Origin: Herbiconiux sp.
GTDB taxonomy: Bacteria > Actinomycetota > Actinomycetes > Actinomycetales > Microbacteriaceae
Assembly: GCF_023264855.1 (NCBI RefSeq)
Contig: NZ_JAHFUW010000027.1
Coordinates: 1-55,281, forward strand
Length of the DNA: 55,281 nt
Reading direction: 5' to 3'
Shown here one piece after another: positions 5,760 through 49,483 of this stretch. The translations under genes and the position numbers were made by a program. The notes under the pieces were generated by a model. It was not told where the DNA came from. It was given only the letters and a program-made list of their open reading frames with translations, and did not search any database. How positions within the stretch are numbered: position 1 is the stretch's first letter; each line of letters opens with the position of its first letter.

Positions 5760-6242
5760 TCAGGCGTCGATCTTGAGCTTCTTGCGCAGCGAGGCGACGT
5801 GGCCCGTGGCCTTCACGTTGTAGAGCGCCAAAGTCAGGATGCCGTCGTCGTCGACGACGAACGTCGAACGCAGTACGCCCGTGACGGTCTTGCCGTAGAG
5901 CGACTTCTCGCCCCAGGCGCCGTAGAGGTGGTGCACGGCGACATCCGGGTCGGAGAGCAGGGGGAAGTTGAGCCCCTGGTCGTCGACGAACCTCGCGAGC
6001 TTCTCGGGCTTGTCGCGCGAGATGCCCAGCACGACGTAGCCGGCGCTCTTCAGCGAGTTGAGGTTGTCGCGGAAGTCGCAGGCCTCTTTGGTGCAGCCCG
6101 GCGTTCCCGCCTCGGGGTAGAAGTACACGATGACCCGCTGGCCACGGAATTCCGACAGCGATCGGGAGTTCCCGTGCTCGTCGAGGAGGGTGAAATCGGG
6201 AGCCGTCTGGCCTGCTTCGAGGCGCGCGCTGGTGTCGGTCAT
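5760..6242 (-). CDS. bcp: Thiol peroxidase Bcp (peroxiredoxin)
   Basis: 160-residue cytoplasmic peroxiredoxin of the Bcp/PrxQ class, reducing hydroperoxides with thioredoxin as electron donor. The active site TPGCTKEAC gives peroxidatic Cys50 and resolving Cys55, the alpha2-type two-cysteine arrangement. The thioredoxin fold is complete, with YFYPEAGTPGCT (40-51), the conserved FRDNL helix, and the C-terminal SLRKKLKIDA. I choose the MTDTSARLE start because TGGAG stands just upstream and homologues begin at this point; the frame stays open for 17 more codons. It lies directly upstream of, and divergent from, tRNA-Lys. Confidence 0.93.
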   Translation of the reverse strand: MTDTSARLEAGQTAPDFTLLDEHGNSRSLSEFRGQRVIVYFYPEAGTPGCTKEACDFRDNLNSLKSAGYVVLGISRDKPEKLARFVDDQGLNFPLLSDPDVAVHHLYGAWGEKSLYGKTVTGVLRSTFVVDDDGILTLALYNVKATGHVASLRKKLKIDA

Positions 6243-6326
6243 GGCTCCAGTATTTCGCATCCCGGGCCCGGTTTCGCATCGTCCTCGGAGCATGCTAATG
6301 TTGACGACTGGCTCGCCAAGAGCCTC

Positions 6327-6402
6327 GCACCTCTAGCTCAATCGGCAGAGCAACTGACTCTTAATCAGTGGGTTCTCGGTTCAAGTCCGAGGGGGTGCAC
6401 CA
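6327..6402 (+). tRNA. tRNA-Lys (anticodon CTT), intact, prophage attB site
   Basis: 76-nt cloverleaf: acceptor GCACCTC pairs with GGGGTGC (one G.T), anticodon stem ACTGA/TCAGT with loop CTCTTAA giving CTT, T-arm CTCGG-TTCAAGT-CCGAG, discriminator A and an encoded CCA. The 3' half (from 6364) is also the phage attachment core. The downstream half of this tRNA gene therefore came in with the phage while keeping the tRNA sequence unchanged. Confidence 0.97.
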
Positions 6403-6403
6403 C
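6364..6403 (+). repeat. attL core, 40-bp direct repeat with attR
   Basis: The 40 nt from ATCAGTGGG to GCACCAC are identical to 49444-49483. They cover the anticodon stem 3' strand, T-arm, acceptor 3' strand and CCA of tRNA-Lys. Flanking bases differ on both sides (A/T before, A/T after), so the repeat has sharp limits. Confidence 0.97.
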
Positions 6404-6406
6404 AAG

Positions 6407-6439
6407 AACGGCCCAGGTCTGCGGATCTGGGCCGTTTTT
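6407..6439 (+). terminator. Phage-supplied terminator for tRNA-Lys
   Basis: Perfect 10-bp stem AACGGCCCAG (6407-6416)/6427-6436 around a 10-nt loop, running into a T-run (6435-6439). It stands 4 nt after the attachment core, so it replaces the host tRNA terminator that was displaced to 49493-49526. Confidence 0.88.
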
Positions 6440-6469
6440 CGTTGTCCCGGGGAGTCGAGAGGCGGGGCC

Positions 6470-6493
6470 GATCCAGTATTTACTCGGTACTTT
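6470..6493 (+). repeat. Putative integrase arm-type site, left copy
   Basis: 24-bp sequence matching 49307-49330 at 20 of 24 positions and in the same orientation. Its end, ACTCGGTACTTT, overlaps the last codons and stop of the integrase gene. Once the phage is excised the two copies flank the attP core. Confidence 0.5.
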
Positions 6494-7607
6494 CGAATAG
6501 CGTCTCGATGACTCCTGCGAAGTCCGCGATCTGCTCCTGGATCTCGACGTAGAACTCCGTCGTGATGCCCTCGGTTGCGTGGCCGAGCTGGTCGCTCGCA
6601 GCCTTCACGTTCACCTCGCGCGCTAGGAGCGTTGCGACAGCCTTCCGATAGTCCCGGGGGGTCTTTCCTTCGTAGGCGCTTCCGACGAGGGCCTGGCGCC
6701 ACTGCCGACGCGTGTTGTTCGGCCACCGGTACGTCCCTGTGGCCGACGGGAACACCATCGGGTACTCCGCCTCCACCCGACGCGCTGTGAGCATGTGCAG
6801 CACCGTCGGAGGCAGCTTCAGCCCGCGGTTGCCGGCCTCGCTCTTCGGGTGGTCCTGCCGGCGCAGCCCATCGTCATCGACGAGGGTGCCGGATACGCGC
6901 ACGACGCCGTGCTCAAGGTCGATATCGCGCTCCCAGTCCAGCGCCAGGATCTCGCCGATCCGGGCACCGGTCGCTGTGAGCATCTGCGCGAGTTCGTACA
7001 GCTCGGAGATGTGCTCTCGGTCGTACTCCAGGAACAGGGCCCTCATGGCGTGCACGTCGGGGCCCTTCAGTGCCGTGACGATCTTCTTCTTTGCTGAGAC
7101 CGAGATGACCTCGGCGGCGTAGTTCTTCGTCACGGCCCCGTGGCGCACCGCGAGGGCGAACATCTGGACCAGCACCGTGCGCGCTGTGCGGGCCATGGCG
7201 ACCCGATCCATGCGATCACGGATGAACCTGTCCAGGCGGGGCGTGGTTGCCTCCCTGAGGCGCAACGAACCAATCCCCGGCACGATCTGGCTCTGGATCG
7301 AATTGCGGTACGTGGAGAGCGTGCCCGCGGGTGCGCCCTTTAGCTTTCGTTCGTCGAGCCACACAGCGGCCAGCTCCGCGACGGTCGTGGTCGGCGACAG
7401 CAGAGAGTCGGCTTCACCCTCTTTCAGCTTCTCGCGTAGCGCCGTCAGCAGTACCGCTTCGGCGTTCGCCTCCGTGCGCCCGTACCGCTGCATCTGCCGA
7501 CGCTTCCCGGTCGAATCGCGGTAGTAGACGCTCGCCATCGGCCGGCCGTTGACCGTCGTGCGACGCACCTTGCCCCAGGTCTCGAGGGGGAGAGGTGGCC
7601 TAGGCAT
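6480..7607 (-). CDS. int: Tyrosine integrase
   Basis: 375-residue tyrosine recombinase that would catalyse integration at tRNA-Lys and, with an excisionase, excision. It has an N-terminal arm-binding region (about 1-65), a SAM-like core-binding domain (about 72-165) and a catalytic domain (about 180-360). Catalytic residues: Arg216 (TGARIGE), Lys255, the box PRDYRKA with Arg321, His343 (LGH) and nucleophile Tyr353 (EFYVE). The first His of the usual HxxR box is Arg318 here. I start at MPRPPLPLE because AAGG precedes it and because its ATG overlaps the stop of the upstream protease gene by 8 nt; a longer reading of 399 residues is possible. The gene ends 77 nt from attL, as is typical. Confidence 0.95.
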   Translation of the reverse strand: MPRPPLPLETWGKVRRTTVNGRPMASVYYRDSTGKRRQMQRYGRTEANAEAVLLTALREKLKEGEADSLLSPTTTVAELAAVWLDERKLKGAPAGTLSTYRNSIQSQIVPGIGSLRLREATTPRLDRFIRDRMDRVAMARTARTVLVQMFALAVRHGAVTKNYAAEVISVSAKKKIVTALKGPDVHAMRALFLEYDREHISELYELAQMLTATGARIGEILALDWERDIDLEHGVVRVSGTLVDDDGLRRQDHPKSEAGNRGLKLPPTVLHMLTARRVEAEYPMVFPSATGTYRWPNNTRRQWRQALVGSAYEGKTPRDYRKAVATLLAREVNVKAASDQLGHATEGITTEFYVEIQEQIADFAGVIETLFESTE

Positions 7608-8040
7608 GCGCGTGCCTTGCGATCCATTGCCCGGCGCCCATCTTCGGCTTGACGTAGGTGACGTTCCCGATGCGCTCAAGGCAGTAGCGCTGATAGTCGA
7701 TGACGACCTGTCGGGTCACGTCGAGTTCCTCAGCGATGAAGTCGAGGTCGTACGAGATTGCCTCGGCGCGTGCGTACACTTCCGGGTTGACGAGGATGCT
7801 CGCGGCGAATGCGTTGGCCTGGCGTTCGCCTACCTCGCTGTCGCAGGTGTGGCAGTACTTTGCGTGCCCGAGCTCGTGCGCGATGACTTCGTGCCTCTCC
7901 GCACGCGTGAGGCCGATCTCAACGTAGATCGCGCTGTCGTCGTGGTCGTAGAACCCAAGCAGCCCCTCCTCGACCTCGTCGAGATGCGCGAGGTGGATCC
8001 GGATGCCAAGGCGCAGTGCTTCCCCCAGGAGCTCGCGCAT
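7600..8040 (-). CDS. ImmA/IrrE-family metalloprotease
   Basis: 146 residues with the zinc-protease motif HELGH (55-59) and a probable third ligand Glu72 in GERQANAFAA, the hallmark of ImmA/IrrE domains. In ICEBs1 of Bacillus, ImmA cleaves the cognate repressor to induce the element. The same job is likely here because the gene is directly downstream of the HTH repressor (9-nt gap) and overlaps int by 8 nt. The three form one leftward lysogeny operon. Cytoplasmic, with no membrane segment. The start ATG follows the repressor stop closely. Whether it cleaves this repressor is inference. Confidence 0.88.
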   Translation of the reverse strand: MRELLGEALRLGIRIHLAHLDEVEEGLLGFYDHDDSAIYVEIGLTRAERHEVIAHELGHAKYCHTCDSEVGERQANAFAASILVNPEVYARAEAISYDLDFIAEELDVTRQVVIDYQRYCLERIGNVTYVKPKMGAGQWIARHAHA

Positions 8041-8049
8041 GATGTTCCT

Positions 8050-8430
8050 CTACTTGCCGTCGTCGTCGGTGGGGCGCTTCTTCGCGGCCCGCTTCTCAAT
8101 CCCGTTGTTCCAGCTCTCGCGGGCCTTTTCGGTCGCGCGCTTGGGGGACAGATCACCAGTATCTGGATCACCTACGACACTGAGCGCTGGCTTCGCGGCC
8201 GTGCGCAGGATGAGCATCGGGTCGCAGCCCAGCGCCTCGGCGATTACGTCGATGTCGTTCGTGTTGAAGGGCACCTCGCCACGGAGCTTCTTGTAGAAGG
8301 TGTTGCGTCCCATGCCAGTGCGCTGAATTAGCTCTGCCTGAGATACGTCTGCGTCGCGCCGAGCGTTCTCGATGACGTCGATCACGCGCATGGAGAACCC
8401 GCGCGCCGGTCCGATTGGTTTCTGCCCCAT
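8050..8430 (-). CDS. HTH lysogeny repressor
   Basis: 126-residue XRE-type regulator. An N-terminal helix-turn-helix domain (about 14-70) contains SQAELIQRTGMGRNTFYKKLRG, read here as two helices plus recognition helix. A linker DPDTGDLSPKRATEK and a basic C-terminus KRAAKKRPTDDD follow. It has no LexA-like self-cleavage domain, consistent with induction by the neighbouring ImmA-like protease. The ATG at 8430 lies 7 nt after a -10-like TACTTT and has no ribosome site, so the message may be leaderless. A TTG six codons earlier is possible but falls inside the operator. It likely binds the three palindromes upstream, repressing the Cro-side promoter and its own. Confidence 0.85.
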   Translation of the reverse strand: MGQKPIGPARGFSMRVIDVIENARRDADVSQAELIQRTGMGRNTFYKKLRGEVPFNTNDIDVIAEALGCDPMLILRTAAKPALSVVGDPDTGDLSPKRATEKARESWNNGIEKRAAKKRPTDDDGK

Positions 8431-8437
8431 GGCGTAC

Positions 8438-8466
8438 AAAGTACCCAATTCGGGTACTTAACGCAA
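8438..8466 (-). promoter_or_regulatory. Repressor promoter (lysogenic, leftward)
   Basis: On the minus strand: TTGCGT (8466-8461), a 17-nt spacer, TACTTT (8443-8438), then 7 nt to the repressor ATG. Operator 8440-8458 covers the -10 and most of the spacer, implying negative autoregulation. Confidence 0.65.
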
Positions 8467-8509
8467 TGTGTACCCATTTAGGTTGCATAAGAGTACCTAA
8501 ATAGGTACT
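8440..8509. promoter_or_regulatory. Tripartite operator of the lysis-lysogeny switch
   Basis: Three related palindromes: O1 AGTACCC-N5-GGGTACT (8440-8458), O2 TGTACCCATTTAGGTTGC (8469-8486, imperfect), and O3 AGTACCT-N4-AGGTACT (8492-8509, perfect). O1 sits on the repressor promoter, O3 on the Cro promoter and O2 between the two -35 boxes, the layout of lambda OR. Confidence 0.8.
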
Positions 8510-8511
8510 GT
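8483..8511 (+). promoter_or_regulatory. Early lytic promoter (rightward), leaderless into cro-like gene
   Basis: TTGCAT (8483-8488), a 17-nt spacer, TACTGT (8506-8511), then exactly 6 nt to the ATG at 8518. Operator O3 fills the spacer and overlaps the -10. Confidence 0.65.
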
Positions 8512-8517
8512 CACTGC

Positions 8518-8766
8518 ATGGACAGCGCAGACTTCACCCTCAGTACCCGAGTAGCGGGTGCCGTAAAGGCCGAACTCGCCCGGCGCGACCTCAGCGGTCA
8601 CGACCTGGTGGAGCCGCTTCGACTGGGCCGCAACGCGGTTTACGCCCGCCTTCGCGGCGAGCGGCCGTTCGACATGGCGGAGCTCGCTCTGATCGTCGAC
8701 TTCCTCGACCTCTCGATGGACGAGCTGCTTGCCTCAGCCGAACTCGGACGGCGGGTAGCGGCGTGA
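8518..8766 (+). CDS. Cro-like HTH regulator
   Basis: 82-residue DNA-binding protein. An HTH domain (about 10-72) contains DLVEPLRLGRNAVYARLRGE followed by the helix DMAELALIVDFLDLSMDELL. It is divergent from the repressor across the operator region and is the first rightward gene, the position of Cro. Its HTH shares the pattern GRN-x-x-Y-x-x-LRGE-x-PF with the repressor, so the two regulators are likely paralogues reading the same operator. The ATG is 6 nt after a -10-like hexamer. It overlaps the next gene by GTGA. Confidence 0.82.
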   Translation: MDSADFTLSTRVAGAVKAELARRDLSGHDLVEPLRLGRNAVYARLRGERPFDMAELALIVDFLDLSMDELLASAELGRRVAA

Positions 8767-8957
8767 TCGGCGCGCAGTGGCTCACCGAGGAGCAGTGCTC
8801 GGCGAAGACCGGGATTCCCGCGGCCACGCTGCGTGACTGGCGCTTCAAGCGGGTGAATATCCCCTTCTCCCGGATCGGGCGGCTCGTCCGCTACTCGGAG
8901 GCGGAGGTCGAGTCCTACCTCCAGAGCCAGACCGTCGAGGTCCAGCGCACGGCGTAG
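8763..8957 (+). CDS. Excisionase-like winged helix DNA-binding protein
   Basis: 64 residues of MerR/excisionase type: LTEEQCSAKTGIPAATLRDW (helix-turn-helix), then RIGRLVRYSEAEVESYL, the classic wing and dimer helix of AlpA/Xis-like proteins. It would bend attachment-site DNA to favour excision or act as a regulator. A second protein of the same class is at 23084-23287, so which is the true Xis is uncertain. The GTG start overlaps the Cro-like stop (GTGA), placing it in the immediate-early transcript. Confidence 0.75.
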   Translation: MIGAQWLTEEQCSAKTGIPAATLRDWRFKRVNIPFSRIGRLVRYSEAEVESYLQSQTVEVQRTA

Positions 8958-8975
8958 CCCGCCACACAGACCGTC

Positions 8976-9015
8976 GCGCCCACACCCCCCACAGGTTCCC
9001 CCACCTGGTGGGCGC
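8976..9015 (+). terminator. Early hairpin, possible attenuator after cro/xis
   Basis: GCGCCCAC (8976-8983) pairs with GTGGGCGC (9008-9015), with an inner AGG/CCT. It sits in the only sizeable gap (97 nt) of the first early operon, like lambda tR1. No T-run follows. Confidence 0.4.
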
Positions 9016-9054
9016 GGCTTCCCCCTCGCAGTACCGAAGAGAGAAGAGATCAGC

Positions 9055-9318
9055 ATGCCCATGATCGAGATCGGCACGGCAGACGCGCAGCACGCGCTCT
9101 GGGCCGTTGCCGGCGACTTCGGGCTCGGCCTGCAGCCGGGTTCGTTCACCACCAACCTCATCCGTGCGATTCAGCACGCGGACCCGCTGAACCGGGCGCG
9201 CGTCGCCGAGGCGTTCCCCTCGCTCGTGCAGGCCGTGCTCATGGCGTCTGGGTCTGTGGAGGCGCTCGAGGCGCTGCGCACGATGGTGAAGGACCGCACC
9301 GAGGCGGTGACGGTCTGA
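9055..9318 (+). CDS. Hypothetical phage early protein
   Basis: 87 residues, predicted mainly helical, acidic-neutral, no cysteine and no membrane segment. Motif-like stretches are ALWAVAGDFGLGLQPGSFTTN and a C-terminal VEALEALRTMVKD helix. I do not recognise a family. The ATG has a purine-rich GAAGAGAGAAGAGAT upstream. The stop overlaps the next ATG (TGATG), so it is translationally coupled to the TOPRIM protein. Confidence 0.75.
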   Translation: MPMIEIGTADAQHALWAVAGDFGLGLQPGSFTTNLIRAIQHADPLNRARVAEAFPSLVQAVLMASGSVEALEALRTMVKDRTEAVTV

Positions 9319-10238
9319 TGCGCGAAGCATTCGAGGACTGGAACCCGAAGCCCGAAGCGCTCGAGCAGGTACGGATCGCCAACGCGATCTGCGCCGAGAT
9401 GAAGGCGCAAGGCTACGACCTCACACTCCGTCAGCTGTACTACCAATTCGTCGCCCGCGACTACATCCCGAACACCATGCGCAGCTACAAGAACCTCGGC
9501 GCGGTCATGAACCGGGCCCGCCTCGCCGGACTCATGGACTGGGACTACCTCGAGGACCGCACACGCAATCTGCGTGGCAGCCACGGAGGATTCGAAACTC
9601 CGGCCGAGCTGATCGAACTGAACAAGTGGCAGTACGAGACGGACCACTGGCTCGGACAGGACTACCGCGTCGAGATCTGGGTCGAGAAAGACGCCCTCGT
9701 GTCGGTCGTTGGTCGAGCCGCGGGCCGGTACAGCGCGCCCTACTTCAGCTGCCGGGGCTACGTCTCTCAGTCCGAGCTGTACGCAGCCGCTCAGCGTCAT
9801 CTGGAACTCGAACAGTCCGAGACCGAGTCGGGCCTTCGCCCGCAGGTGATCGTCATTCACCTCGGCGACCACGACCCGTCGGGCATCGACATGACCCGTG
9901 ACATGCAAGACCGGCTACGTCTGTTCGGCGCAAGCACCGAGGTCGTCCGCATCGCACTGAACCGCGATCAGATCGACCAGTACAACCCGCCGCCGAACCC
10001 CGCGAAGATCACCGACAGCCGGGCGCGCGGTTACATCGCCGAGCACGGAAGAAGCAGCTGGGAACTTGATGCTCTCGAGCCCCAGGTGCTGAACGACCTT
10101 ATAGGCAACACAATCCAGGACTACCTCGACCGGGACCTCTTCGAGGAGCAGCAAGAGCTGACTCGCGGGGGCCGCCAGTTGCTCGAGAAAACGAGTGAGC
10201 AGTGGGCGGCCGTGACCGAATTGCTGGACACGCTGTGA
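9318..10238 (+). CDS. Stand-alone Topo VI A/Spo11-like TOPRIM protein (Topo mini-A type)
   Basis: 306 residues. The N-terminal winged-helix region (about 15-85) carries LTLRQLYYQ, where Tyr41 or Tyr42 sits at the place of the DNA-cleaving tyrosine of Topo VI A/Spo11. A TOPRIM domain follows: Glu123 in WVEKDAL and Asp184/Asp186 in LGDHDPSGID, plus SCRGYVSQS. The closing segment SSWELDALEP is shared by this protein class. No B subunit (GHKL ATPase) is near. Such mobile-element proteins without a B subunit were described as Topo mini-A. The role is unknown: nicking, cleavage during replication or packaging, or regulation. Its place in the first early operon beside the recombination genes suggests DNA processing. 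Confidence 0.8.
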   Translation: MREAFEDWNPKPEALEQVRIANAICAEMKAQGYDLTLRQLYYQFVARDYIPNTMRSYKNLGAVMNRARLAGLMDWDYLEDRTRNLRGSHGGFETPAELIELNKWQYETDHWLGQDYRVEIWVEKDALVSVVGRAAGRYSAPYFSCRGYVSQSELYAAAQRHLELEQSETESGLRPQVIVIHLGDHDPSGIDMTRDMQDRLRLFGASTEVVRIALNRDQIDQYNPPPNPAKITDSRARGYIAEHGRSSWELDALEPQVLNDLIGNTIQDYLDRDLFEEQQELTRGGRQLLEKTSEQWAAVTELLDTL

Positions 10239-10336
10239 GCCGCCGTCAGACGTTTCAGTCGCGGCCGTGGTGGGCGCGATTCGGCGGTGCCCGGCTGACC
10301 GCCCGCCTCGTGCGCGCAATGCGGGGCGCATCGTGA
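10235..10336 (+). CDS. Possible 33-residue basic peptide
   Basis: GTG start overlapping the upstream stop by GTGA, and a stop that overlaps the next gene's GTG in the same way. The peptide is rich in Arg, Trp and Gly (MSRRQTFQSRPWWARFGG). Double-coupled junctions are the only support. It has no recognised family. Alternatively this 95-nt stretch is an untranslated spacer. Confidence 0.35.
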   Translation: MSRRQTFQSRPWWARFGGARLTARLVRAMRGAS

Positions 10337-10491
10337 CCCGCCAGCTGCTCGCGCTCGTGTTCATCGTCGCATTCCTCGGCCTGGTCGTCGTCTCGTTCGT
10401 GCTCGGCGTCAACGGTGCCGTGCTCGTCCTCGCCGTCGTGATGGCGGGATCCGGCGGGCTGCTCATCGCGACGAGAGCGGGGGCGCGCTGA
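10333..10491 (+). CDS. Small membrane protein
   Basis: 52 residues, mostly two adjacent hydrophobic segments: about 5-24 (LLALVFIVAFLGLVVVSFVL) and 28-46 (GAVLVLAVVMAGSGGLLIA), a likely hairpin in the membrane. A GTG start at 10333 is chosen by the GTGA overlap; a longer in-frame start at 10267 is less likely. It lies between the TOPRIM protein and a cysteine-containing protein in the early operon. Function unknown. Confidence 0.6.
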   Translation: MTRQLLALVFIVAFLGLVVVSFVLGVNGAVLVLAVVMAGSGGLLIATRAGAR

Positions 10492-17499: not shown

Positions 17500-18365
17500 T
17501 GGCATGGTTCAAGGTCGACGACGGGTTCTTCTCGTCGCGCAAGGTGCTGTCGATCCCGAAGCGGATGCGCCTCGCCGCGGTTGGACTGTGGACGCTCGCC
17601 GGCACCTGGTCGGCAAAGGAGCTGACCGACGGCGAGGTGCCCGAGTACATGATCGAGGAGCTGGGCGCTACTCAGGCCGCAGCCGAGGCACTTGTGAGCG
17701 CCAGACTCTGGACGCGTGAGGCGAACGTTTTCCATTTCGCCAACTGGGACGAGTACCAGCCGAGTGCAGCCTCAATCGAGGACTCGCGCGCTGCAGCTAA
17801 GCAGCGTCAGGCGGAATACCGGGCCAGGAAGGCGGGCGTGACGCCGCCGTCACAGCGTGACAAGAGCGTTAGTCACAGTGTGACAGCAGCGTCAGTCACG
17901 GACGTGTCACAGCCCCCCGACCCGACCCGACCCGACCCGACCGTTATATCTCTTGTCCAGCCTCCGGCTGAAACGGGTAAGCGCCCGGCGACGGCGTACC
18001 CGGACGACTTCGAGCAATGGTGGGCGTCTTATCCGCGGCGGGAGTCGAAGGGGGATGCGCTGAAGGCGTGGAACACGCTGAAGAAGAGCAAGCTGCTGCC
18101 TCCTTTGCAGGTGCTGGTGATGGCGTCGGAAGCGTACGCGGCGAGGTCGGATGACCCGCAGTTCATCAAGCTGCCGGCGGGGTGGTTGCGCGCGCACAAG
18201 TGGAACGACGAGAAGACGACGGCGCCGGCCGAGACTGGCCCGGCGGTGCATCCGCAGCTGGCGATCTGGCTCGATCAGGTGGGGCTGACGCACGACGAGT
18301 ACCTCGAGCGGAAGGACGAGCCCGGGTTCGTCGAGGCCATGAACCGGAGGCGTCAGCATGGCTGA
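17499..18365 (+). CDS. Replication initiator protein (winged-helix/DnaD-like)
   Basis: 288 residues. The N-terminal domain (about 1-95), WFKVDDGFFSSRKVLSIPKR ... AVGLWTLAGTWSA, is the winged-helix start typical of actinophage replisome organisers. A charged helix (SRAAAKQRQAEYRARKAG) and an S/T/P-rich linker (about 115-160) follow, then a helical C-terminal domain (DFEQWWASYPRRESKGDALKAW) resembling helicase-loader domains. The linker DNA contains repeated palindromes, so the gene probably holds its own origin, as lambda O does. It directly precedes and overlaps (8 nt) the DnaB gene, supporting a role in origin binding and helicase loading. Confidence 0.82.
   Translation: MAWFKVDDGFFSSRKVLSIPKRMRLAAVGLWTLAGTWSAKELTDGEVPEYMIEELGATQAAAEALVSARLWTREANVFHFANWDEYQPSAASIEDSRAAAKQRQAEYRARKAGVTPPSQRDKSVSHSVTAASVTDVSQPPDPTRPDPTVISLVQPPAETGKRPATAYPDDFEQWWASYPRRESKGDALKAWNTLKKSKLLPPLQVLVMASEAYAARSDDPQFIKLPAGWLRAHKWNDEKTTAPAETGPAVHPQLAIWLDQVGLTHDEYLERKDEPGFVEAMNRRRQHG
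17849..17952 (+). other. Putative phage replication origin inside the initiator gene
   Basis: Iterons GTCACAGCGTGAC (17849-17861) and GTCACAGTGTGAC (17872-17884), then a third GTCAC element starting at 17895: starts at an exact 23-bp period. A further GTCACAG lies at 17906 and a GTGAC half-site at 17838. Next come five tandem CCCGA units (17916-17940), then an AT-rich GTTATATCTC (17943-17952) that could melt. Confidence 0.65.
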
Positions 18366-19671
18366 GCGCACACCGCCGCACGACGAGGAGGCGGAGCGGT
18401 CCGTGCTCGGCGCGATGATGCTGTCGAAGGCGGCAGTCTGGGATGTCCTCGACGTCGTGGCCGGGAAGGACTTCTACTACCCGAAGCACGAGATCGTGTT
18501 CGACGCCATCCACGCCCTGTCGGCGAAGGACGAGCCGATCGACGCGATCACCGTGCACGACGAGCTGCGCCGCCGCGGCGACCTCGCGAAGGTCGGCAAC
18601 ACGATCACCCACGAGCTGACCTCGGCGACTCCGACGGCCGCGAACGCGTCCTACTACGCGCACATCGTGCACGACAAGGCAGTCCGCCGGCGCACGCTCG
18701 AAGCAGCCACCCGCATCCTGGAGCGCGGCTACTCCGACATCGGTGAAGCCGATGCGCTCGTGGAGGAGGCCCGCGGCGAGCTCGACGCGGTCCTCGGCGG
18801 GCAGCGTGCCGAGGTGGTGCGGGTCGGGGCCGCGTTCAACCAGGTCGTCGAGGAGCTGTCGACGCAGCCCAACGTGATCGAAACACCCTGGCACGAGATC
18901 AACAAGATCCTCGTCGGCCTCCACCCCGGCCGTCTGGTCGTGGTCGGCGCCCGCCCAGGCGAGGGCAAGACGATGGTCGCCGCCCAGCTGGCCATGGCGA
19001 TGTGCCGGAAGGGCCCGGTGGCGTACTCGTCGCTGGAGATGACCCGCGGCGAGCTCCTACAGCGGCTGATCTCGAACGCGGCCACCGTGCACATGGGGTC
19101 GCTCGAGCGATCGCACCTCACGCAGGACGAGTGGGAGCGGGTCGCCAGCATCCGCCCCAACCTCGACGCGCTCCCGCTTTACGTGGACGACCGGTCGGAG
19201 GTGACGATCACGCAGATCCGCGCGCACGCCCGCTCGGTGTCGCGGAAGGGCCCGCTCGGCGGCATCGTCGTCGACTACCTGCAACTCGTGTCCGGCGTCG
19301 GCGATGACGAGCGCTACAAGATCGTGTCCGAGGTGTCCCGGCAGCTGAAGATCATGGCGAAGCAGTTCGACTGCCCGGTGATCGCGCTGTCGCAGCTGAA
19401 GCGGGCCCCGCAGATGCAGGGGAAGCAGCGGAAGCCGCCGACGCTCGAGGATCTGCGCGAGTCGGGAACCATCGAGCAGGACGCCGACGTCGTCATTCTG
19501 CTGCAGCGCGGCCAGTCCGAGGACGGCCACCCAGACCAGCGGCTGCGCATGCATGTCGCGAAGAACCGCCACGGCCGCCAGGGCTACTCGCACCTCCTGT
19601 GGGAGGGCGCTTACGCGCGGGTGTCGTCGTGGAAGAACAACGGGCAGTACGAGCTGCCGATCCCGGACTGA
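18358..19671 (+). CDS. DnaB-like replicative helicase
   Basis: 437 residues. The N-terminal helical domain (PPHDEEAERSVLGAMML, about 6-105) is typical of DnaB. The RecA-fold domain carries Walker A GARPGEGKT (about 197-205), the SLEM segment after beta-strand AYSS, Walker B VVDYLQLV, ALSQLKRAP and DLRESGTIEQDADVVILL, all standard DnaB motifs. It forms a hexameric ring that unwinds DNA 5' to 3' and recruits host primase. It is close to the usual 440-460 residues. It overlaps the initiator gene, which probably loads it. Confidence 0.95.
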   Translation: MAERTPPHDEEAERSVLGAMMLSKAAVWDVLDVVAGKDFYYPKHEIVFDAIHALSAKDEPIDAITVHDELRRRGDLAKVGNTITHELTSATPTAANASYYAHIVHDKAVRRRTLEAATRILERGYSDIGEADALVEEARGELDAVLGGQRAEVVRVGAAFNQVVEELSTQPNVIETPWHEINKILVGLHPGRLVVVGARPGEGKTMVAAQLAMAMCRKGPVAYSSLEMTRGELLQRLISNAATVHMGSLERSHLTQDEWERVASIRPNLDALPLYVDDRSEVTITQIRAHARSVSRKGPLGGIVVDYLQLVSGVGDDERYKIVSEVSRQLKIMAKQFDCPVIALSQLKRAPQMQGKQRKPPTLEDLRESGTIEQDADVVILLQRGQSEDGHPDQRLRMHVAKNRHGRQGYSHLLWEGAYARVSSWKNNGQYELPIPD

Positions 19672-22089: not shown

Positions 22090-22539
22090 ATGCCGATCAT
22101 GAACTACACGACGGACATCTCCGTCACGAAGACCATGGGCGAGATCCAGGGCGCCCTCGCCCGCCGAGGCGTCACCCGCATCTCGACACTGTTCGACGAC
22201 AGCGGCGTCGCGGCCGGCCTCGGCTTCACCATGAAGACCGACTACGGGCCCCGCGACTTCGAGCTTCCCGTGCGCACCGCCGGCGTGCTGAAGGCGATGG
22301 AGTCCGACTCGAAGGTGCCGCGATCGAAGTGCACGACGGAGCAGGCGGCGAAGGTCGCCTGGCGGATCGCGAAGGACTGGCTCGAGGCGCAGTCGGCGCT
22401 GATCGACGCGCAGCTCGCCCGCCTTGACGAGGTCATGTTCCCGTACATGGTGGTGTCAGAGGAGGGCACCGTGTACGAACTATTCCGCGGCAAGCAGCTC
22501 GAGTCGCTTGAGGCGACGAAGACCTCCGCTACGGTGTGA
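22090..22539 (+). CDS. Conserved hypothetical protein, last gene of early block
   Basis: 149 residues: MNYTTDISVTKTMGEIQGAL, RISTLFDDSGVAAGLGFTMK, FELPVRTAGVLKAME, then VAWRIAKDWLEAQSALIDAQ and EVMFPYMV. This alpha/beta protein is a type commonly seen in phages and prophages near replication genes; I know no established function for it. ATG preceded by GAGGAGG. It overlaps the next gene by GTGA, although that gene appears to have its own promoter. Confidence 0.7.
   Translation: MPIMNYTTDISVTKTMGEIQGALARRGVTRISTLFDDSGVAAGLGFTMKTDYGPRDFELPVRTAGVLKAMESDSKVPRSKCTTEQAAKVAWRIAKDWLEAQSALIDAQLARLDEVMFPYMVVSEEGTVYELFRGKQLESLEATKTSATV
22508..22535 (+). promoter_or_regulatory. Putative internal promoter for membrane-protein accessory gene
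   Basis: TTGAGG (22508-22513), a 16-nt spacer, TACGGT (22530-22535), then 6 nt to a GTG at 22542. It lies within the end of the preceding early gene and would let the accessory gene be expressed independently in the lysogen. Confidence 0.45.
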
Positions 22540-23078
22540 CAGTGAATATTTGGGACGGGCTCTGGAGCTGGTACGCGAGAGAGTTTCAGGAGGACCCGGC
22601 CGGGTGGATCAGCCTGTTCATCCTCGTCGGCGGCGTGGTCGTCGCCTCAATCTTCGGCCGAAAGATCATTGGGTTCGCTCGATCAATACCCGGCCGCATT
22701 GATCGGCGTCTCCGTAAGCACTACTCGCCGCCGGCGCCAGTTACTCCATCGGTTCTTGCGACGTTGGCGGTGACCTTTGTCCTCGCGAACGTCACGGCCA
22801 AGAACTATGTGGACACCATGGGTAGGCGACAGGGCGGTGTGATCAACTATGGCATCGAGAATCTGGGCCCCATGGCGGTTCAAGACGTATGGATATCGCT
22901 CGAAGGACCACAGCTCAGCGCGCGAAGCCGCCTGTTTTGGGATGAGATGCCAGTCGGTCGAAAAGAAGCGTTCACCGTCCACATTCCATTCACCGCTGAG
23001 CGTTCGGCGACCCTCCTTTGGAAGCAGGATGGCGTTCAATGCAGCAAGATCCTTCTGCTCCCGCTGGACGTCGACTGA
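22536..23078 (+). CDS. Membrane protein, probable lysogenic accessory gene
   Basis: 180 residues (178 from the GTG at 22542). Two hydrophobic helices at about 24-46 (ISLFILVGGVVVASIFG) and 69-88 (VLATLAVTFVLANVTAKNYV) flank a basic loop (RIDRRLRKHY). A beta-rich soluble domain follows (INYGIENLGPMAVQDVWISL, FTVHIPFTAERSATLLW), resembling an immunoglobulin-like fold. Codon use is visibly less GC-rich than in the neighbouring genes, a sign of separate acquisition. Start choice is unresolved between the GTGA overlap and the leaderless GTG. Function unknown; superinfection exclusion is one possibility. Confidence 0.65.
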   Translation: MTVNIWDGLWSWYAREFQEDPAGWISLFILVGGVVVASIFGRKIIGFARSIPGRIDRRLRKHYSPPAPVTPSVLATLAVTFVLANVTAKNYVDTMGRRQGGVINYGIENLGPMAVQDVWISLEGPQLSARSRLFWDEMPVGRKEAFTVHIPFTAERSATLLWKQDGVQCSKILLLPLDVD

Positions 23079-23083
23079 TTGCA

Positions 23084-23287
23084 ATGGAGGACCGCGAGCT
23101 CTACGACATCCGGAGCGCGTCGCGTCGCGTGCGCCGCTCGCGGCAATCTATCTACTCCTGGATGCGCCACGGAATGCCCTACCGACTCGTCGGAGGCCGC
23201 CGCTACATCGCCCACGACGACCTGCTCACCGCACTCCGCGAACGCATCCGCGCGAAGAGATCCACCCAATTCAGGAAATCCGTTTGA
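23084..23287 (+). CDS. Excisionase-family HTH DNA-binding protein
   Basis: 67 residues: LYDIRSASRRVRRSRQSIYS (helix-turn-helix), WMRHGMPYRLVGGRRYIAHDD (wing), then LLTALRERIRAKR. This is the HTH_17/excisionase fold, strongly basic. It may be the true excisionase or a transcription regulator of the late genes that follow. The ATG at 23084 has little ribosome-site support; a longer frame from 23018 overlaps the membrane gene and is less likely. Confidence 0.68.
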   Translation: MEDRELYDIRSASRRVRRSRQSIYSWMRHGMPYRLVGGRRYIAHDDLLTALRERIRAKRSTQFRKSV

Positions 23288-23486
23288 CACCCACGGTTCT
23301 TTACAGTTTCACTACAAGGTAAGCACTTCTGCACCCACCGATTCGAGTCACCGACTCTCGGCGGGTGTCGTGCATCACGGACCCGCCACCGTCTCTTCCG
23401 GTGGCGATACAGGGCTGACAACCTGGCATCTGAGGGGATGCGAACTCGTCACGGGCGGCCGCATTCTGGGAGAGTTGCGGCCGCCC
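23284..23486 (+). ncRNA. Candidate structured non-coding RNA
   Basis: A perfect -35-like TTGACA (23284-23289) opens a gene-free stretch with three hairpins in a row: 23332-23367 (CACCC-A-CCGA paired with mismatches to CGG-C-GGGTG), 23384-23406 (CGCCACCG/CGGTGGCG, 7-nt loop) and 23453-23486 (11 bp). No strong -10 is seen at standard spacing, so the start is unclear. It lies between convergent genes. It could be a small regulatory RNA or only a terminator region. Confidence 0.35.
23453..23486. terminator. Bidirectional terminator between convergent genes
   Basis: Perfect 11-bp stem GGGCGGCCGCA (23453-23463)/23476-23486, with a 12-nt loop. It stands 7 nt from the stop of the leftward HEPN gene and ends the rightward stretch as well. 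Confidence 0.7.
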
Positions 23487-23493
23487 GGCTTCA

Positions 23494-24210
23494 TCATCGA
23501 GATGTGACGATCACCGTCGCGGCCGAGTGAATCAAGTCTGACGCGACGGCGAAGGCCAGGTCGCACATTGCCGCGGCATCCTCGACCGGCCGGTGGTGTC
23601 GAGCTCGACCGCGCGCGGCTTCGACATCCTGGTAGTCCATCTTGTGGACAACGCTGTTGCGGACGGTGAAGAACGGATCGAGCGCTTTGAACCGGGCCGG
23701 GGGAAGCCCGGCACCGGGCAACCCCAGAGCACCTCGAACACGCGTGTCCAGGTCGCCGCTTCCCTGGTAGCTGGCCTTTGTCCGCTGACGAAGGTAGTAG
23801 GTGATCAGTTCCTCCCTGGGGTCGGACGCAATGATCGCTTTGATCAGATCAGCGCCCACCTTGTCCGAGCTCACCAACTCCTGACGGATAAACGACTCGT
23901 ACTGCGCGCGAGCCCCAGTCCCGGCTCGGGGGATCAGATAACGCCCGGCGTCCCAGACAAGTCGTTGCATCGACGCGTCCAATCCGCTCGACGTGAAAGC
24001 GATCGCGGCACGGACGATGTCGACCTCGTGCGTCGCCATTCGACCGCCGTTCACACCAGTTGCTGCCCGACGGGCGTCGTTCAATGCCGCGACTGATTCG
24101 AACAACCCAACAACGCTTCCGTGCGCACCGCGGAGGAACTTGTGTGCGACGCGCACTTCCGGGACGCGACCCTTCGGCCCGTCGGGCAGTGCCCTCAACG
24201 ACGTCGTCAT
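23494..24210 (-). CDS. HEPN-type protein with RNxxxH motif, candidate phage-encoded defence RNase
   Basis: 238 residues, mainly helical. The motif VRNSVVH (Arg184 to His189, R-N-x3-H) is the active-site signature of HEPN ribonucleases. It is preceded by DPFFT and followed by a long C-terminal helix DAAAMCDLAFAVASDLIHSA, as in HEPN bundles. The N-terminal helix VDIVRAAIAFTSSGLDASMQ also has the HEPN helix-1 pattern. HEPN proteins act in toxin-antitoxin, abortive infection and RNA-processing systems. It is encoded leftward against the early and late operons, as expected for a gene active in the lysogen. The start MTTSLRAL has GGGGGG upstream; a longer frame is possible. Ribonuclease activity and defence role are inference. 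Confidence 0.68.
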   Translation of the reverse strand: MTTSLRALPDGPKGRVPEVRVAHKFLRGAHGSVVGLFESVAALNDARRAATGVNGGRMATHEVDIVRAAIAFTSSGLDASMQRLVWDAGRYLIPRAGTGARAQYESFIRQELVSSDKVGADLIKAIIASDPREELITYYLRQRTKASYQGSGDLDTRVRGALGLPGAGLPPARFKALDPFFTVRNSVVHKMDYQDVEAARGRARHHRPVEDAAAMCDLAFAVASDLIHSAATVIVTSR

Positions 24211-24306
24211 CGACCCCCCATTCGTCCAGCCAGCATATGGGGCATCTGCCCAGCCGTGTACCCCGCCCAGCCCGCCTCGCACGCCGCACGGTGGCCGGAG
24301 CGGCAC

Positions 24307-24513
24307 CTACCTGCGGCCAGAGAGAATCTGGTTGGCGCGACGTCGGACGCGCTCATTGTCGACCCGGAAGCCGGGATCGTCGGTCGTCAGATCGAGAGTC
24401 ACACCGTCCGCCGTATCGCCGCCGTCGGCGCGGATCTCTTCAGCAACTGCCTCGGCCAGCGCTTCGTAGATGATGTCGTCCCCCATCTTGCCGAAGTCCG
24501 GGAAGCCGCTCAC
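24307..24513 (-). CDS. Small acidic protein of the HEPN cassette
   Basis: 68 residues: MSGFPDFGKMGDDIIYEALA, AVAEEIRADGGDTADGVTL, then a basic end RVRRRANQILSGRR. Mixed charge and no known domain. Its ATG overlaps the stop of the upstream small gene by 4 nt, so the two are coupled. The HEPN gene starts 96 nt downstream. It could be an antitoxin or regulatory partner. Confidence 0.6.
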   Translation of the reverse strand: MSGFPDFGKMGDDIIYEALAEAVAEEIRADGGDTADGVTLDLTTDDPGFRVDNERVRRRANQILSGRR

Positions 24514-24710
24514 GAGCGGTCCTTCTCGAGCAGCAGACGGATCGCGTGGATCTCGGTGGCGAGCACAGCGAGCAGAGCCGACTGCGCCTGCACGTGCTGA
24601 TACTGCGAACCGGGGATTGGTGTCGTCGTATCGGCGTTCGCCGCGTTGATCTGGTCGACAGCATCGTTGATCATCTCGGTCGGGTCATATTCGGCGTTCA
24701 GGTCAGACAT
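24510..24710 (-). CDS. Small acidic protein, first gene of the HEPN cassette
   Basis: 66 residues: MSDLNAEYDPTEMINDAVDQ, then a Thr/Pro turn and a long helix (QYQHVQAQSALLAVLATEIH, AIRLLLEKD). The ATG is exactly 6 nt after a near-consensus TATGAT, so this gene probably heads a leaderless leftward transcript. No family recognised. Confidence 0.6.
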   Translation of the reverse strand: MSDLNAEYDPTEMINDAVDQINAANADTTTPIPGSQYQHVQAQSALLAVLATEIHAIRLLLEKDRS

Positions 24711-24716
24711 GGCCGA

Positions 24717-24722
24717 ATCATA
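24717..24722 (-). promoter_or_regulatory. Leaderless promoter of the HEPN cassette
   Basis: TATGAT on the minus strand (24722-24717), 6 nt before the ATG at 24710. No clear -35 is visible. It is the closest match to the sigma-70-type -10 consensus (TATAAT) among the elements noted here. Confidence 0.6.
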
Positions 24723-24751
24723 GCGACAGGTGAAGACCAGGAGATAGGGCT

Positions 24752-25057
24752 ATGGGAAGTCGAAGCGTCCGGGACGGCAAGGGTCACCGCGCCTACCGCC
24801 GCGCCCAGGCCGCCCTGAAGCGTCGCACCGCGGCCGAGAACCTGCCCTGCGGGTACGGCTCACCCACCGGCGAGGGATGCGGCCAGCCCATCGACACCAC
24901 CATTCCGGCCGGCGAGCGCATGTCGTTCACCGCCGACCACCCGCAGGCGCTCGGGAATGGCGGCCGCCTCGTTGGCCAGCAGCTCGTGCCGATGCACCTG
25001 ACCTGCAACAGCAGGAAGGGCGACCACGCGCCCGTCGAGATCTGGGCCGCGTCGTAG
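24752..25057 (+). CDS. HNH endonuclease upstream of terminase
   Basis: 101 residues. HNH fold: CGYGSPTGEGCGQPI (zinc or structural Cys), FTADHPQALGNGGR with the catalytic DH, then LVPMHLTCNSRKGD with the conserved N and a final H. HNH proteins encoded beside terminase genes work with the terminase in cos-type phages such as HK97. It is the first late gene, and AGGAG lies 8 nt before the ATG. It is divergent from the HEPN cassette. Confidence 0.85.
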   Translation: MGSRSVRDGKGHRAYRRAQAALKRRTAAENLPCGYGSPTGEGCGQPIDTTIPAGERMSFTADHPQALGNGGRLVGQQLVPMHLTCNSRKGDHAPVEIWAAS

Positions 25058-25072
25058 ACAGAGGAGATCACC

Positions 25073-25441
25073 ATGGCTGCAGTCATCGGCACTGTGAAGG
25101 TGCCCGCCTCAATCGTGATCAGCGCCGAGGGATCAAGCGAACCGCTGGGCACCGCCGAGTTCGAGCTGACCGTCCATGTCGGCGGTGACTATGCCGGCGA
25201 CGCGACGAAGCGTTCGATGGCCGACGCGCTGCGTCAGGCGGCCGACGACATCGAAGCCCAGCTCTTCCACGAGCCCAGCGCCCACCACCACCGCCCCGTG
25301 CAGCACAGAGACGGTAAGCCACCATGGTGCAACGCCTGCGGGCTCACGGCCAGCCACGCGGTGCCCGTCTCGCGCTTCCCCTCACCACCCACACGCGGGC
25401 CCAGCGGCGGGGCCGGCGACTCGGGCGCAGCCGATGAGTAA
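25073..25441 (+). CDS. Hypothetical protein with CxxC tail
   Basis: 122 residues. The N-terminal beta-rich part (VIGTVKVPASIVISAEG, AEFELTVHVGG) and a helix (MADALRQAADDIEAQLF) are followed by a His-rich stretch (SAHHHRPVQHR), a CNAC motif and a disordered Pro/Gly end. The ATG is preceded by AGAGGAG. It overlaps the next small gene by 8 nt. Function unknown. Confidence 0.65.
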   Translation: MAAVIGTVKVPASIVISAEGSSEPLGTAEFELTVHVGGDYAGDATKRSMADALRQAADDIEAQLFHEPSAHHHRPVQHRDGKPPWCNACGLTASHAVPVSRFPSPPTRGPSGGAGDSGAADE

Positions 25442-44510: not shown

Positions 44511-45680
44511 TCAGGGGGTTGAAACTGGTCGGACGATTGTGTCTTCGCCCGCCTTGTCGGCGAGTGCGCGTTTCTGGTGACTGGTGATGAAGTGTCTCTC
44601 CACAAGCCAGAAGAACCCGTACGATGCAGCGACCGCGATCGGGATCACCACGAGGACAAGCACAAGCCAGTTCGCGAGGGTGGGGAGCTCGAGCGGCAGC
44701 ATCAGGATGTTCGCCAGAGCGAGAAGCGGGGAGTGGATGAGGTAGATGCTGTAGGAGAACAGCCCGAGGAACACCAGTGGTCGCCACTCGAGAATGCGCA
44801 CTCCGAGGTTGGTGCGCCCGGCCAGCTTCGTTTGCCCCATTGCGACGAGGCCGAGGGCGATGCCGGCTCCGGCGAGTGTGTCGGAGATGATCTGCTCGTG
44901 GCGGGCGTGTGGAGTGTAGGTGAGCTGCCACGCGACGGCGATCAGGAAGAGGCCGATGCCTGCCCATCCGAACCAGTGTGACGGGATGCGTGGTGTCCCA
45001 CGGACGGTGTAGAGCGCGGCCATCATTCCGAGTGCGAAGAGGCCGATCATCCAGTAGTTCGCTGGTCCGACTCCGGGGAGAGCGTAGGAGAGGGCGGGGC
45101 CGAGTAGCAGGGCGACGACCAGCATCACCCACGGGTTGAGCCAGCGGCAGAGCGGCAGGAGGATCAGCGGCATGATGAAGTAGATGTGCCACTCGGTCGC
45201 CACCGACCAGGCGGGTCCGTCGATCTGGTAGATCCAGTCGGCCCTCCAGTTATGGATCAGCAGGAAGTGGGAGACGACGCCCCAAGGGGTGATCGGCACC
45301 TTGTTGTCCCAAGCGGTGTCGTGGCCTGTCTGCAGCGCGGGGATGACGGCGATCATCACGATGAAGAGGATGAGGGCAGCGTAGTAGGGCGGGAGGATTC
45401 GTTTCCCTCGTCGCCAGATGTACTTCCAGAACCCGCCGCGAAGCTCGAAGTTGGCGGTGCGGGCGACGGGGAGCATCAGTACGTAGCCCGACAGTGTGAT
45501 GAAGATGGGCACCGCGTAGTTCCCGATCTCCATCAGCTTCGCGATGATCGGCAGGTTCTCGTCGGCATCGCCGAGGTGACCCGTGAACGTCGTCGCGTGT
45601 AATACCGCGACCGTCAGCGCGGCGAGTGCTCGCAGCCCATCGGCGAACTCGAATTTGGGACGCGCCCCCGCTTTATCCAC
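44511..45680 (-). CDS. Acyltransferase 3 family membrane protein, probable surface-modifying conversion gene
   Basis: 389 residues, about ten membrane helices. Family marks: FADGLRALAALTVAVLHATT with the catalytic-type His28, RRGKRILPPYYAALIL, PAWSVATEWHIYFIMPLI, and near the end LGLFSYSIYLIHSPLL. Acyltransferase 3 proteins acetylate cell-surface sugars or peptidoglycan; phage versions (such as Oac) change O-antigen and block reinfection. It is encoded leftward between spike and endolysin, against the late operon, so it is probably expressed from the prophage. The GTG start is 6 nt after TAGGGT. Confidence 0.9.
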   Translation of the reverse strand: MDKAGARPKFEFADGLRALAALTVAVLHATTFTGHLGDADENLPIIAKLMEIGNYAVPIFITLSGYVLMLPVARTANFELRGGFWKYIWRRGKRILPPYYAALILFIVMIAVIPALQTGHDTAWDNKVPITPWGVVSHFLLIHNWRADWIYQIDGPAWSVATEWHIYFIMPLILLPLCRWLNPWVMLVVALLLGPALSYALPGVGPANYWMIGLFALGMMAALYTVRGTPRIPSHWFGWAGIGLFLIAVAWQLTYTPHARHEQIISDTLAGAGIALGLVAMGQTKLAGRTNLGVRILEWRPLVFLGLFSYSIYLIHSPLLALANILMLPLELPTLANWLVLVLVVIPIAVAASYGFFWLVERHFITSHQKRALADKAGEDTIVRPVSTP

Positions 45681-49443: not shown

Positions 49444-49483
49444 ATCAGTGGGTTCTCGGTTCAAGTCCGAGGGGGTGCACCAC
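49444..49483 (+). repeat. attR core, 40-bp repeat of the tRNA-Lys 3' end
   Basis: Identical to 6364-6403. The upstream tRNA half is absent here, so this is a remnant and not a functional tRNA gene. Confidence 0.97.

Follow-up and report, generated by a model that had tools for sequence, protein, structure and literature searches.

A HEPN-fold protein encoded in a variable slot of a Herbiconiux prophage is a candidate anti-phage effector

HepS, from the Salmonella prophage Gifsy-1, is a HEPN protein with an abortive-infection role. A second prophage HEPN effector, Tha, is a tail-activated anti-phage protein of Staphylococcus aureus prophages that carries the motif R265NSIMH270; the cI promoter drives its expression, and an antisense inhibitor, Ith, a small phage-encoded protein, accompanies it (PMC11087260). 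Here we analyze a stretch of 55,281 nucleotides from Herbiconiux sp. (NZ_JAHFUW010000027.1, one entire contig; hereafter the window), in which a prophage encodes a 238-residue protein containing VRNSVVH. By analogy with such effectors, we favor with moderate confidence the reading that this product is a solitary prophage HEPN ribonuclease that would abort infection by other phages. An earlier note on this DNA had proposed a three-gene leftward defense cassette, and its three open reading frames (ORFs) are present:

23494..24210, minus strand: 238-residue HEPN-fold protein (P0001), ATG start; Rx4H motif R184-N-S-V-V-H189, codons 23661-23644
24307..24513, minus strand: 68-residue small protein (P0002), GTG start, family not recognized
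24510..24710, minus strand: 66-residue small protein (P0003), ATG start

The HEPN identity put forward in that note is borne out. R184 and H189 are kept in 27 of 27 sequences, 21 of them below 90% identity, and since both fall among only 13 invariant positions out of 238, the motif is more than a chance occurrence. The residue following the arginine is N in 19 sequences and H in eight, which fits the rule that active-type HEPN proteins have a polar residue (N, D or H) there (PMC3710099). An upstream acidic residue, D78, is likewise present in all 27; four positions on, where the typical form is Ex3[KR], 19 sequences have K or R and eight, including the window protein, have Q. Structure prediction gives a helical bundle, and the solved structures that match it best are HEPN toxins: these fill the top five rows of a VIA-align listing with scores of 8.1-9.2, against 7.7 for the next row, although a family missing from that listing is not thereby excluded. 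Family libraries gave little, with no match up to E = 1 in Pfam, PADLOC or NCBIfam and one PHROG at 0.24. The single protein matched nothing in a PDB sequence search, and the family profile found weak matches to non-HEPN chains alone (E of 0.38 or above). PF18735 (HEPN_RiboL-PSP) shows up as a subthreshold match in 10 of 16 relatives, at 16.6-19.0 bits for those with listed scores (cut-off 28.4 bits), while P0001 itself gave no PF18735 match; a literature search found no paper pairing 'RiboL-PSP' with HEPN. It is very improbable that we are looking at some other helical bundle with an accidental Rx4H motif, given the invariant R, H and D, the lead of the HEPN toxins among fold matches and the PF18735 signal in relatives. 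We are highly confident of the HEPN fold and active-site motif, and the protein very probably acts as a ribonuclease, likely as a dimer.

Relatives are scarce and patchily spread. Four of 60 close genomes hold one, the own genome included and the other three weak. The phylum set yielded seven of 396 genomes, with G313 (E 3e-76) and G233 (1e-14) the only strong ones besides the window; a six-row profile found six of 398 genomes in the family set, one in three pieces and one weak; and in one genus of the class 11 of 295 genomes were positive, six nearly full length. Single-sequence scans of viral and genome contigs detected no relative, but an alignment query (A3) recovered 15 genome loci and two viral loci that they had missed; alignment A4 comprises the window protein, 13 of these 15 loci and both viral ones, the truncated L064 and L065 having been dropped. 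Named loci with relatives belong to Microbacterium, Agromyces, Streptomyces, Kitasatospora, Nocardiopsis and, as a short copy, Actinomadura, and relatives also occur on two Streptomyces plasmids and two viral-labeled contigs, one of these exactly as long as one of the plasmids; phage records contained none at E 0.01. Broken or truncated copies (L024/L026/L027 in G655, L034/L039 in G969, L064, L065) are a sign of turnover. Separately, several Streptomyces relatives (L062, L066 and L067, and also L006:6708-7556) are followed by a conserved gene whose start overlaps the stop of the HEPN gene; its 282- and 393-residue versions have no Pfam match.

The host element, which lies between two att repeats, spans about 43 kb and has the modules expected of a prophage:

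6364..6403, no strand: attL core, 3' end of tRNA-Lys(ctt)
49444..49483, no strand: attR core, 40 bp, identical to attL
6480..8448, minus strand: integrase, ImmA/IrrE-like metallo-protease and repressor genes (lysogeny module)

We call it a prophage, as the earlier note did, because the att repeats occur together with integrase, repressor and phage module genes, the latter including RecT, DnaB, large terminase, portal and tape-measure. The repressor (8050-8448) lies 15 kb from the HEPN gene. Inside the rightward late region, a leftward gene for 389 residues (44511-45680, minus strand), membrane acyltransferase-like by eye, is a further candidate for lysogenic conversion.

The three leftward ORFs oppose both flanking operons and sit, as previously described, between the DnaB helicase (18358-19671) and the HNH and terminase genes (starting at 24752, 25706 and 26130). 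The slot that holds them has these landmarks:

23084..23287, plus strand: small protein resembling HTH_17 (below Pfam cut-off), left border gene, conserved in sister prophage G005
23452..23487, no strand: inverted repeat between convergent genes, perfect 12-bp arms, 12-nt loop
24252..24306, minus strand: shared element of 54-55 bp between the 68-residue and HEPN genes
24752..25057, plus strand: HNH endonuclease, right border gene

Two related prophages show that this slot is a variable cargo site, empty or holding other cargo. In genome G005 the terminase and portal DNA of a prophage is 77-80% identical to that of the window. The match there takes in the HTH gene and runs to the hairpin, and it includes the HNH gene as well; just some 447 bp lie in the gap, so that the cassette is missing. 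Similarity to sister prophages stops at about the hairpin, which is terminator-like without a T run. An ORF of 177 codons in the G005 slot overlaps the HNH gene and was set aside as probably spurious. The second copy, on contig C52 of the own genome (G000; locus L095), is decayed and 90% identical over 1.2-1.3 kb of terminase genes. There, sequence matching the flanks 23320-23461 and 24760-25050 brackets some 2.46 kb, the HTH gene itself being absent; this interval holds a leftward gene for 415 residues and a rightward gene for 276 residues containing IRNSAHH:

L095:2865-3695, minus strand of that locus: gene for 276 residues
L095:3793-5040, plus strand of that locus: gene for 415 residues

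Neither has a useful Pfam match; on its motif, the 276-residue product is a second candidate Rx4H protein.

A wider survey found 12 HNH places in 10 of 398 genomes. In the 11 besides the window, checked for some 5-9 kb upstream, a small terminase gene follows HNH in 10 and an HTH gene precedes it in two, while a HEPN relative was found upstream in none. This bears on the idea that the protein is a regulatory or RNA-processing HEPN factor serving the prophage's own cycle. A location flanked by replication and packaging genes, with its convergent hairpin, would suit such a role, but the lack of a HEPN relative upstream of HNH at all 11 other loci argues that related phages do not need it, and relatives sit on chromosomes and plasmids (whose own prophage status was not tested). 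We consider an own-cycle role improbable. The slot marks a variable site for cargo in this group of temperate phages, where further defense genes could be sought.

The 54-bp element recurs at the same slot in three of the 11 loci (L094, L095, L112) with 80-83% identity over 41-54 bp. Read leftward, all four copies give CRSG(H/R)RAA. In the window and C52, the two cargo-bearing copies, the leftward cargo gene follows some 40 nt downstream of the element, which could be what is left of a small gene or could serve as a leader. Weak matches at L055 (E 0.003 over 35 nt, some 5 kb away from the HEPN gene there) and L116 (E 0.03 over 21 nt) were taken as chance. On the side of the element that faces the HNH gene, both L112 and L095 carry a short rightward ORF whose product looks membrane-bound, beside the 276-residue gene in L095, and reading of the DNA gives the same kind of ORF in L094. 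In the window, this side is occupied by the two small genes instead.

The small genes do not appear to belong to a three-gene system. The coupling described in the earlier note holds for the pair itself, where the start of the 68-residue gene overlaps the stop of the 66-residue gene by 4 nt, and fails for the HEPN gene, whose ATG comes 96 nt after the 68-residue stop. The neighborhood survey that the note had suggested found neither small protein by tblastn in 32 fetched neighborhoods of HEPN relatives (best E 0.34 and 0.46), a set that includes duplicates, truncated and broken copies and in which short, fast-changing proteins could be missed. For the 66-residue protein, no relative turned up among 60 genomes, in phage records (E 0.1) or in viral contigs. 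For the 68-residue protein, phage records (E 0.1) and viral contigs were likewise negative, and the 60 genomes gave two relatives, on C52 (58%) and in G012 (51%), neither with a recognized HEPN gene beside it. We therefore rejected the three-gene unit: the small genes were undetected in the fetched neighborhoods of HEPN relatives, and the shared element separates the pair from the HEPN gene. The simplest reading is that the pair and the HEPN gene arrived separately; the pair is most likely a separate insertion beyond the element rather than a set of obligatory partners. In the G012 locus (L018, about 6161-10425), the relative of the 68-residue protein shortly precedes a gene for 1,244 residues, P-loop (STAND-like) by eye, a possible defense context.

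These observations also bear on a toxin-antitoxin or inhibitor arrangement, in which one or both small proteins would check a HEPN toxin, as Ith checks Tha, and the system would stabilize the prophage or block phages. The small genes are upstream, on the same strand and coupled to each other, and small phage-encoded inhibitors such as Ith exist (PMC11087260). Moreover, the C52 relative of the 68-residue protein lies at the edge of the same prophage remnant as the 276-residue IRNSAHH gene, about 6 kb from it, a point that weighs against a solitary effector. Set against this are the negative tblastn survey, the intervening element and the gap of 96 nt, which leaves no translational coupling to the HEPN gene, and we regard the arrangement as unlikely.

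The earlier note had pointed to a near-consensus TATGAT ahead of the first gene:

24717..24722, minus strand: TATGAT, possible -10 of a leaderless transcript, read from sequence

The hexamer (24722-24717) does precede the ATG of the 66-residue gene by 6 nt, but no -35 hexamer was seen, and a promoter and terminator scan returned 0 sites (for sigma-70, 0.4 were expected from shuffling). The HEPN frame stays open upstream to a GTG at 24306 (270 codons); the starts of the nearest relatives fall close to 24210 rather than this GTG. GC content at third codon positions (GC3) is 0.73-0.80 for the cassette ORFs, the 0.73 being taken on the 270-codon frame, and 0.81-0.93 for other ORFs picked between 20075 and 28962, leaving out two short opposite-strand picks at 22104-22493 and apart from two rightward genes just left of the cassette (0.71, 0.69). 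The first of these (22536-23078, plus strand; GC3 0.71), at the left edge of the slot, encodes a probable membrane protein of 180 residues (by eye), with no Pfam or PHROG match.

Some relatives have defense-like neighbors. The closest, L051 (53% identity), lies 91 bp after the preceding gene in a tight same-strand set of nucleotidyltransferase (NTase)-like, GmrSD_N and HEPN genes. L052 has a TIR gene 450 bp upstream, L006 has AbiV (also so named in RefSeq) with one gene between, L046 has a divergent SMODS cyclase, and the vicinity of L020 holds Fic-motif and C5-methyltransferase-motif proteins (sequence motifs only); a pooled neighbor census matched the SoFic and MTase_II models. At many Streptomyces loci no defense-like neighbors were seen by eye. 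The L046 cyclase and a downstream gene for 155 residues without a Pfam match (L046:4388-6155) form a CBASS-like pair. Recombinase- or transposase-like genes, again by eye, lie near relatives at L042:7235-7951, L051:8923-9764, L052:9065-9790 and L057:2646-3686, as expected of mobile cargo.

In the PADLOC census (E <= 1e-5), a set of 132 neighbor proteins (of 143 picked from 23 loci) matched 145 families, compared with 23 families for 110 control proteins (of 114 picked from 11 arbitrary stretches of relative-holding genomes). Twenty-five of the 145 families are among the matches listed, most of these matched by one member only, and the counts are inflated, since one protein can match many models and L041/L058 and L061-L063/L066/L067 are near-duplicates. 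The control stretches match defense models too (AbiEi and AriA, for example), so that the excess is no more than a hint. The L051 set raises the possibility that a nucleotidyltransferase and a GmrSD-type protein are partners of the HEPN effector elsewhere, and that the prophage copy is a remnant standing alone. However, the L051 NTase match is below the Pfam cut-off (15.5 versus 21 bits), no such set was noticed by eye in the other neighbor lists (which were not searched list by list), and the window gene is unbroken and retains its motif; we give the remnant low probability.

A solitary effector would work as follows. The gene would be accessory, swappable cargo of a temperate phage, encoding a mainly helical bundle with an R-N-x3-H ribonuclease site. 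In the lysogen, expression would probably be low and the protein kept inactive. Infection by another phage might then activate the protein through some phage component, by analogy alone a structural one such as a tail protein; the active enzyme would cut RNA (tRNA, rRNA or mRNA), translation would stop, and the aborted infection would leave the remaining lysogens protected. If the trigger is a phage structural protein, that would suggest that such sensing by HEPN effectors recurs across unrelated prophages. A more elaborate version seems distinctly unlikely as a whole: a dedicated immune-cargo slot between HTH and HNH genes in this phage group, a conserved 54-bp leader launching leftward, lysogen-expressed cargo, an undescribed HEPN family sensing incoming phages, an own-genome remnant with other cargo in that slot including the IRNSAHH protein, and small proteins acting as a self-protection switch so that induction would not trip the phage's own ribonuclease.

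A defense role is plausible from the neighbors of some relatives and by analogy with Tha and HepS. HepS, which has been solved bound to the lambda J tail tip (PDB 9oik), is 11% identical to our protein. Compared with the HEPN toxins of HEPN/MNT pairs (PDB 7ae2, 7ae6, 7ae8, 7ae9), the window protein has about 90 more residues and no MNT antitoxin gene recognized next to it, and its scanned neighbors at 22536-25441 include no NTase match, an NTase-like gene having been found in one case, two genes before relative L051. The nearest sequence family is PF18735, to which the helix-1 acidic residue and the Rx4H order correspond, though the profile comparison is weak. Tha is the best documented working analogue: it is likewise prophage-encoded, with a single effector gene and a C-terminal HEPN R-N-S-x-x-H motif (PMC11087260). 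At 301 residues it is longer than the 238 here, and its gene belongs to the repressor operon, whereas the Herbiconiux gene sits leftward in a slot of its own, 15 kb from the repressor; no Ith was recognized in the window, where an antisense inhibitor was not searched for. The window protein adds an actinobacterial HEPN family, unnamed in Pfam, PADLOC, NCBIfam and PHROG, to prophage-borne HEPN effectors like Tha and HepS.
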